Origin: Rickettsia tillamookensis
GTDB lineage: Bacteria > Pseudomonadota > Alphaproteobacteria > Rickettsiales > Rickettsiaceae
Direction of reading: 5' to 3'
Assembly (NCBI RefSeq): GCF_016743795.2
Contig: NZ_CP060138.2
Location: 310,001-374,000, forward strand
Length of the DNA: 64,000 nt
Positions 54,880-55,257 of the stretch are shown in pieces. The notes below the pieces were generated by a model. It ran no database searches and was not told the DNA's origin. It saw only the letters and a program-made list of their open reading frames with translations. Within the stretch, counting starts at the first letter, position 1; each line of letters opens with the position of its first letter. The translations under genes and the position numbers were made by a program.

Positions 54880-55257
54880 GTGTCATCCCGTGGCTTGTCC
54901 ACGGGATCCAGAAATTTAATAATATAATGAAACAATATTATGTATATATATTAGCTAGTAAACGTAATGGTACATTATATATTGGAGTAACTTCAAATAT
55001 TATAAAACGTATTTATGAGCATAAACATAAGATAATTAAAGGATTTTCTTCTAAGTATAGCATAAATAAATTAGTTTATTTTGAACAATATGATGATGTT
55101 ATAGCTGCAATTAATCGAGAAAAATTATTAAAAGAATATAAAAGATAGTGGAAATTAAATTTAATTGAATCTCAAAATCCGGAATGGCATGATTTATATG
55201 AAAAAATTATTTTATAATTTTTTTTCTGGATACCGTGGACAAGCCACGGTATGACAC
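54880..55257 (+). mobile_element. Family B element carrying a GIY-YIG endonuclease gene
   Basis: The inverted arms at 54880-54914 and 55223-55257 are 35 bases each and match at 33. Each arm is itself a hairpin (ccgtggcttgtccacgg). The two differences between the arms are a C/G versus A/T pair that keeps each hairpin stem intact. Between the arms is a GIY-YIG gene (54927-55217). Left outer sequence ccctcgg(tgtcat) matches the short B copy at 40319-40482. The layout equals the non-coding B copies, with a gene in place of the short middle. Confidence 0.82.
54927..55217 (+). pseudogene. GIY-YIG endonuclease (URI-like) with an in-frame TAG
   Basis: The ATG at 54927 opens a protein with the GIY-YIG start KQYYVYILASKRNGTLYIGV, followed by the Arg in TSNIIKRIYEHK, the SSKYSINKLVYFE segment and a Glu in NREKLLKEYKR. 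A TAG at 55146-55148 ends it at 73 residues. The same frame continues for 22 codons (WKLNLIESQNPEWHDLYEKI then IL) to a TAA at 55215-55217, matching the usual tail of this family. The stop is therefore a recent single-base lesion, although the 73-residue form keeps most of the catalytic core. The gene lies wholly between the arms of a palindromic element. Confidence 0.82.

Follow-up and report, generated by a model that had tools for sequence, protein, structure and literature searches.

What is a small nuclease gene doing between two inverted hairpins of a repeat class that seems to have no enzyme of its own? The question is raised by positions 54,880 to 55,257 of a 64,000-nucleotide stretch of Rickettsia tillamookensis (contig NZ_CP060138.2, positions 310,001 to 374,000, forward strand), referred to below as the window. 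Here, a gene of the GIY-YIG superfamily is enclosed by two arms that resemble the CGTC-tagged repetitive extragenic palindromes (REPs). CGTC-tagged REPs include the Rickettsia palindromic repeats and also occur in Bradyrhizobium; in the accessible parts of their description they "apparently lack a dedicated transposase" and have no transposase gene linked to them (Di Nocera et al., 2013; PMC3733652), whereas at this locus a GIY-YIG gene lies between the paired repeats. In our view the feature is probably an old copy, by now interrupted, of a small element bounded by palindromes, and its GIY-YIG subfamily is probably the dedicated enzyme of the CGTC-tagged REPs.

The gene is a URI-type GIY-YIG frame on the forward strand (54927..55148) that encodes 73 amino acids and is closed by an in-frame TAG at 55146-55148. 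The 73-residue piece belongs to the GIY-YIG superfamily by its match to Pfam PF01541, which scores 47.9 bits against a cut-off of 22.6. The remainder of the interrupted frame (55149..55218, forward strand) runs to a TAA and is not read through; its 22-residue piece, searched apart from the piece before the stop, matches no Pfam family. The left arm (54882..54911, forward strand) is a TGTC-tagged hairpin with a 9-bp stem, a 5-nt loop and a CCAG tail, a CGTC-type REP of what we call arm family c. The right arm (55226..55255, reverse strand) repeats the left arm in inverted orientation, apart from a compensated C/A and G/T change. A repeat search of the window returned the arms as 54877-54928 and 55209-55260 (52 nt, 85%). 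Their 35-base cores are identical at 33 positions, and the C/A and G/T differences were seen by eye to pair with each other, so that the stem is kept in each arm. Folded singly, the arms form the 9-bp stem and 5-nt loop at -10.1 and -9.3 kcal/mol, and none of 200 shuffles was as good. A first-pass annotation, made from the letters alone, had proposed a GIY-YIG gene enclosed by two near-identical arms, each its own hairpin with a stem-preserving paired change, and a gene broken by an in-frame stop. All of this was borne out, and copies of the gene type with open frames occur in relatives (L055, L057 and L058).

The arms share the features of CGTC-tagged REPs. The tag, which is CGTC and often TGTC or CCTC, is unpaired at one end, the stem is 8-9 bp long and mostly starts with AT, the loop is 4-5 nt and is followed by a CCA tail, and inverted pairs are common. 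In both window arms the stem opens with complementary AT and the loop and tail are as described; some arms elsewhere have longer loops. When 70 distinct 28-mer arms were chosen by flank match with no hairpin demanded, 78.9% of their stem cells paired in the 8/4 register; shuffles averaged 66.9% and did not exceed 71.3%, and slid registers gave at most 53.4%. Forty-four of these arms fit the 8/4 register, 7 fit 9/5 and 19 fit neither. In the 25 arms returned by a pairing-based finder, pairing is 100% and 7 of the 8 stem positions show double changes, values that are partly by construction since the finder demands pairing. The arrangement also recalls the REPtrons, described in accessible parts of the same source as a RAYT gene with GTAG-tagged REPs, in which a small enzyme gene is likewise bracketed by inverted REP hairpins and non-coding pairs are found elsewhere (PMC3733652). 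RAYTs are Y1/HUH enzymes and their REPs carry the GTAG tag, whereas the element here carries the CGTC tag and the domain encoded between its repeats is GIY-YIG and not a Y1/HUH transposase.

The pairing of gene and arms holds across the genus. A PF01541 search of 23 genus genomes gave 79 hits outside frames of UvrC length, and exclusion of four UvrC/Cho-like hits left 75 small genes and fragments. A family-based finder, in which the family e arm pattern is loose, placed both arms at 62 of the 75, one arm at 11 and none at 2, and the same arm family stood on both sides at 58 of the 62 (label shuffle mean 13.1, maximum 26). With at least one arm at 73 of 75, gene copies without arms hardly exist in the genus. 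The first-pass annotation had taken gene and arms to belong together and had named armless copies as what would refute it; on this count its reading stands. Enclosing inverted repeats with a Smith-Waterman score of at least 14 were found at 62 of the 79 hits versus 0 of 76 other spans in the loci, and at a score of at least 18 at 56 of 79 versus 44 of 316 mismatched flank pairs. GTCAT...ATGAC ends (GTTAT allowed) were seen at 52 of these 56 high scorers within the region searched. In four genus genomes a second GIY-YIG gene, UvrC/Cho-like and armless, was observed (L026, L043, L050 and L052).

The architecture of hairpin, GIY-YIG gene and inverted hairpin recurs in several phyla. Relatives were collected with A1, an alignment of 17 proteins built mostly from armed loci together with the armless L101 and L126; L114 lies outside it. 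The best 80 of at least 579 confirmed A1 relatives form the named loci, of which one was dropped for a short flank. Among the remaining 79, inverted repeats scoring at least 16 enclose the gene at 54 versus 0 of 142 other spans at the same loci; 67 of 314 mismatched flank pairs scored. The scoring loci include many Proteobacteria, and record titles also name Nitrospirae, Deltaproteobacteria, Moraniibacteriota, Uhrbacteria and Winogradskyella. A strict hairpin finder detected both arms at 43 named loci, one at 20 and none at 16; the corresponding counts for 147 control spans were 0, 5 and 142. Arms were also present at 17 of the 28 best hits in a sample of the phylum versus 0 of 45 control spans, and at 18 of 20 hand-picked loci, five of which are common to the phylum-sample set. 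In a sample of the order (29 loci, one dropped for a short flank), subfamily genes with at least 129.8 bits to A1 were armed in 10 of 13 cases and other small GIY-YIG genes with at most 55.6 bits in 0 of 15, a contrast that is not blind because A1 was drawn largely from armed loci. One query protein found no match in 50,697 phage records, and viral contigs contained one relative that is 43% identical over 46 residues. Four loci of the order (L100, L105, L112 and L120) carry another small GIY-YIG type with no scoring arms. By eye, three of them have similar leaders and L120 stands close behind a tRNA-like 3' end.

The arm family follows the protein clade. After genus insertion sites were collapsed to 20 by single linkage, which merged some sites of different families with one copy of each kept, the arm family agreed with that of the nearest protein neighbour at 19 of the 20 sites (within-genome label shuffles: mean 9.2, with 19 reached in 66 of 20000). 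Genome G344, whose genus is taken from its sequence to be Bradyrhizobium, holds five gene copies, and these have arms of four or five types. Where a c-type gene is present (9 genus genomes), exact family c arms are commoner than in the 14 genomes that lack one (p 0.0008). Counts of family c arms show no relation to the a/b-type gene (p 0.68, 23 genomes), and a/b arm counts show no link to the c-type gene (p 0.39, 23 genomes). Gene types per genome are our own labels, and G009 and G017 were counted as a/b from a fragment and from a gene with unrecognised arms. Among 299 genomes of the phylum, the subfamily gene (E at most 1e-18) is present in 73, the exact CGTC-1 type pattern in 59 and both in 29 (Fisher p 3e-6; counts transcribed by hand). 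Among candidates for the CGTC-REP enzyme this GIY-YIG subfamily ranks first, since the arm family follows the clade and the other small GIY-YIG genes are armless in all 15 cases.

In the literature covered, none of the titles and opening lines of abstracts listed links this GIY-YIG nuclease to these repeats; preprints and most subscription papers fell outside that coverage, so a report elsewhere is possible. The term GIY was not found in the accessible parts of PMC12306157, PMC6006769, PMC5896051 and PMC5082802. Some rickettsial palindromes are described as lying inside genes, again in a source seen in part (PMC10969869). With a GIY-YIG gene bracketed by CGTC-tagged REPs in several phyla, the dedicated-enzyme question posed by what is accessible of PMC3733652 becomes a direct biochemical test, namely whether each protein cuts its own hairpin family. 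The pairing bears on the spread of rickettsial palindromes, and the GIY-YIG enzyme is a strong candidate for the missing machinery of a widespread class of bacterial repeats.

How might such an enzyme work? The A1 alignment has invariant Y, R, E and N columns, which we take to be the catalytic-type residues of GIY-YIG nucleases. An AlphaFold2 model of the first member of A1 has a mean predicted local distance difference test score (pLDDT) of 93.7. In a structure search with this model, the UPF0213 structure 1zg2 ranked first and was the only PDB hit at E of at most 0.001, followed by Slx1 chains (E 0.006 upward, template modeling (TM) score about 0.55). UPF0213 structures (1zg2 and 1ywl), which share the GIY-YIG fold with the enzyme, are also its only PDB sequence matches. 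The Slx1 nucleases share the fold too, and Slx1 has been solved with its partner Slx4 in structures whose titles refer to the processing of branched DNA. In contrast to the armed subfamily, the more distant small GIY-YIG genes show no scoring arms. Recognition or cutting of the arms by the enzyme, as suggested in the first-pass annotation, can reasonably be inferred from the coupling of arm family and clade together with the Slx1-like fold of the model. In the likely mechanism, an Slx1-like nuclease would recognise its own hairpin family once an inverted pair extrudes as hairpins or as a cruciform, and would cut near the hairpin base. Joining or repair would then move, copy or remove the DNA between the arms, and the enzyme may also act in trans on non-coding CGTC REP pairs. 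Since inverted hairpins can extrude, it is most economical to propose a cut at their base. DNA cleavage, the position of the cut, the route of insertion and the action in trans are all steps that we infer. We put forward tentatively, as something that may but need not be so, that a GIY-YIG nuclease drives palindrome-bounded mobile elements in several phyla and, by cleaving hairpins or cruciforms, moves its own element and, in trans, non-coding CGTC REP pairs. If this is true, DNA mobility would rest on a fold not known as a REP transposase, and the origin of the rickettsial palindromes would be explained.

Sites in relatives record the life history of the element. The window copy is placed between murB (53969-54856) and a ddl frame, neighbours named from our own reading of the translations, and its site is common to three relatives. 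The gene with arms or arm pieces stands at murB-ddl in 4 of 23 genomes (G000, G022, G018 and G021). The frame is open in G021, and in G018 the matched domain has no stop and the start is disturbed; in both, one arm is broken by another repeat. The repeats that break these arms (L150 and L151) appear by eye to be accompanied by an 8-9 bp duplication. Other genus genomes hold non-coding pairs of various families at this site, and in G003 and G012 the site has one symmetric hairpin, tagged at both ends, the flanks in G012 matching those of the non-coding pair in G020. The first-pass annotation had noted that arms arriving separately at murB-ddl would undo its reading; gene and arms occur there jointly. 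A search of the genus for parent sites with composite flanks (four sites, three read) returned mostly other palindromes or divergent spacers. In seven Sphingobium plasmid records, three of which were read, the full stretch is matched and the element lies between fnrL and a response-regulator gene. The element's gene has a one-base gap in TomTYG73, a symmetric hairpin occupies the same site in TomTYG74 and TomTYG64, and neither form is present in TomTYG72 and TomTYG65. Such a hairpin may correspond to the outer halves of two arms, either as a scar or as a precursor. The elements decay in place, and symmetric single hairpins occupy sites that in relatives carry the element or a non-coding pair.

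Could these observations arise without an enzyme dedicated to the repeats? Genomes rich in REPs will bracket many genes with inverted REPs by chance, and 34 arms of four families were detected in the 64-kb window. Chance is nevertheless scarcely credible as an explanation, as paired arms at the thresholds used occur in none of the 76, 142, 147 and 45 control spans and at none of the 15 other small GIY-YIG genes; at the level tested, the span controls refute chance bracketing. An unlikely explanation, though one with substance, is that a GIY-YIG homing gene targets existing REP pairs: its product would cut a gene-free pair, the gene would be copied in from an occupied pair by repair, and the REPs would be moved by other means. 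GIY-YIG homing endonucleases have the same fold, and a selfish-gene reading is possible. One flank cluster can hold differing element types in different species, 2 of 4 genus proteins scanned match group I intron endonuclease models below the cut-off, and 1 of 3 matches phage homing-endonuclease families. The topA-gltX site carries a gene-bearing pair in G000 and, in G005, a non-coding pair whose left arm is the same and whose flanks are similar, as a homing gene might leave them. However, the gene-free allele of a homing gene would be an uninterrupted site, and at this one pair of sites the middle has been replaced and not interrupted, the gene-free spacer not flanking the gene. The gene is also bounded by its own hairpin family, which follows the protein clade. 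At murC-murB in the genus of G344, where 70 genomes were searched and 45 site sequences examined with gene names assigned by eye, 8 sites have the element with gene and both arms (one of them, G491, interrupted in frame by a TGA), another 22 are short and have no arms, and 11 have other sequence (G457 perhaps with a right-arm piece). The single cases are an internal-deletion remnant (G489), a right arm only (G480), a symmetric hairpin (G466) and a left-arm stub (G454). Because 22 of the 45 are arm-free and 8 are full, gene and arms come or go together at this site, in either direction, which weighs against a rider on existing REP pairs. Separately, in eleven genomes of this genus the murC-murB gap is occupied by variants of a different, CCCTCCCCCGCAAGGGGGGAGGG-like inverted repeat (L377, L379, L381, L383-L385, L389, L391 and L393-L395).

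Purifying selection acts in this one orthologous series. The median ratio of nonsynonymous to synonymous divergence (dN/dS) is 0.08 over 15 pairs from six open-frame copies, with high dS; these are six of the eight occupied copies, G491 with its stop and G448 being left out. Such selection would suit a domesticated enzyme, a REP-hairpin processor kept by the host for maintenance and immobile, with the flanking REPs as its own regulatory or terminator sequence, and so would the occupation of one site in several species (murB-ddl, and downstream of a cytochrome b-like gene). We find domestication improbable, given the patchy presence of the gene in the genus, where it has several copies and its frame is often interrupted, the several arm families in the single genome G344, and the different sites in different species. 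The first-pass annotation had a further proposal, that the short non-coding copies are deletion products of the nuclease element in the manner of miniature inverted-repeat transposable elements. By the family-based finder, the window contains 12 non-coding pairs of inverted arms from a single family. Four of these share arm family c with the gene copy, and there is one mixed-family pair at 360-431. The family c pairs lie at 7914..8012 and 32727..32825 (both with a 41-nt spacer), at 52375..52474 (42-nt spacer, arms 100% complementary) and at 24590..24728 (81-nt spacer), the last absent from the list in the first-pass annotation. That list had joined five copies in one family: those starting at 7914, 32727 and 52375 are indeed of the gene copy's arm family, but those at 40349..40462, with a stem unlike the gene copy's, and at 47640..47762 have family a hairpins. 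The four window pairs and 17 from selected places elsewhere were compared with the gene ends. Only 2 of the 21 spacers resemble them (p<0.05, either orientation), which is about chance, 16 hold their own ACTAAT/ATTAGT-type palindrome unrelated to the gene (motif counted by eye), and 13 are 41 nt long. The short pairs have spacers of their own in place of gene remnants and so differ from the element by more than the loss of the gene. The arm family common to the gene copy and four window pairs speaks for the proposal, and one internal-deletion derivative does exist, in G489, but a general origin of the short copies by deletion is very improbable, and that part of the first-pass annotation found no support.

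Several results weigh against the preferred reading, in which the GIY-YIG subfamily is the enzyme of the CGTC-tagged REPs and drives their movement. The spacers just described are among them. Neither cleavage nor movement was observed in this analysis of sequences. No target-site duplication, the mark of an IS or MITE moved by DDE-type transposition, was seen by eye at element boundaries, where clean parent sites were few, and many genus insertions are common to several species, so that no recent movement is evident there. Within the genus, a/b arm counts have no link to their own a/b gene (p 0.30, 23 genomes). Across the phylum, the exact arm pattern is absent in 44 of the 73 gene-bearing genomes, and pattern arms abound in genomes without the subfamily gene at E of at most 1e-18 (106 in G309, 95 in G182, 42 in G198 and 14 in G431). 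Arms were also missing at the 16 named loci where the strict finder detected none, at 11 of the 28 best phylum hits and at 3 of the 13 subfamily genes of the order sample (L101, L114 and L126) by scoring. The mismatched flank pairs that score in both the genus and the named loci count here as well; they score because arm motifs are shared.

Some minor observations concern sites and neighbouring repeats. Family e GIY-YIG elements or remnants recur in what appears to be a single intergenic neighbourhood downstream of a cytochrome b-like gene; L028, L038, L045, L047, L056 and L061 clustered as one site, and L059, L070, L085 and L087 were assigned to it by eye only. Two family e copies in G021 (L041 and L042) have the same protein and arms and lie far apart, a possible recent duplication or movement. 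The C-terminal tail of topA is different and longer in genomes that have no palindromes at the topA-gltX site (L187 and L189-L192 compared with L174-L186). Finally, the double hairpins at 32697-32930 and 40319-40480 of the window appear by eye to be nested in a larger repeat with GTTGTTGCATGGCTC-like ends.
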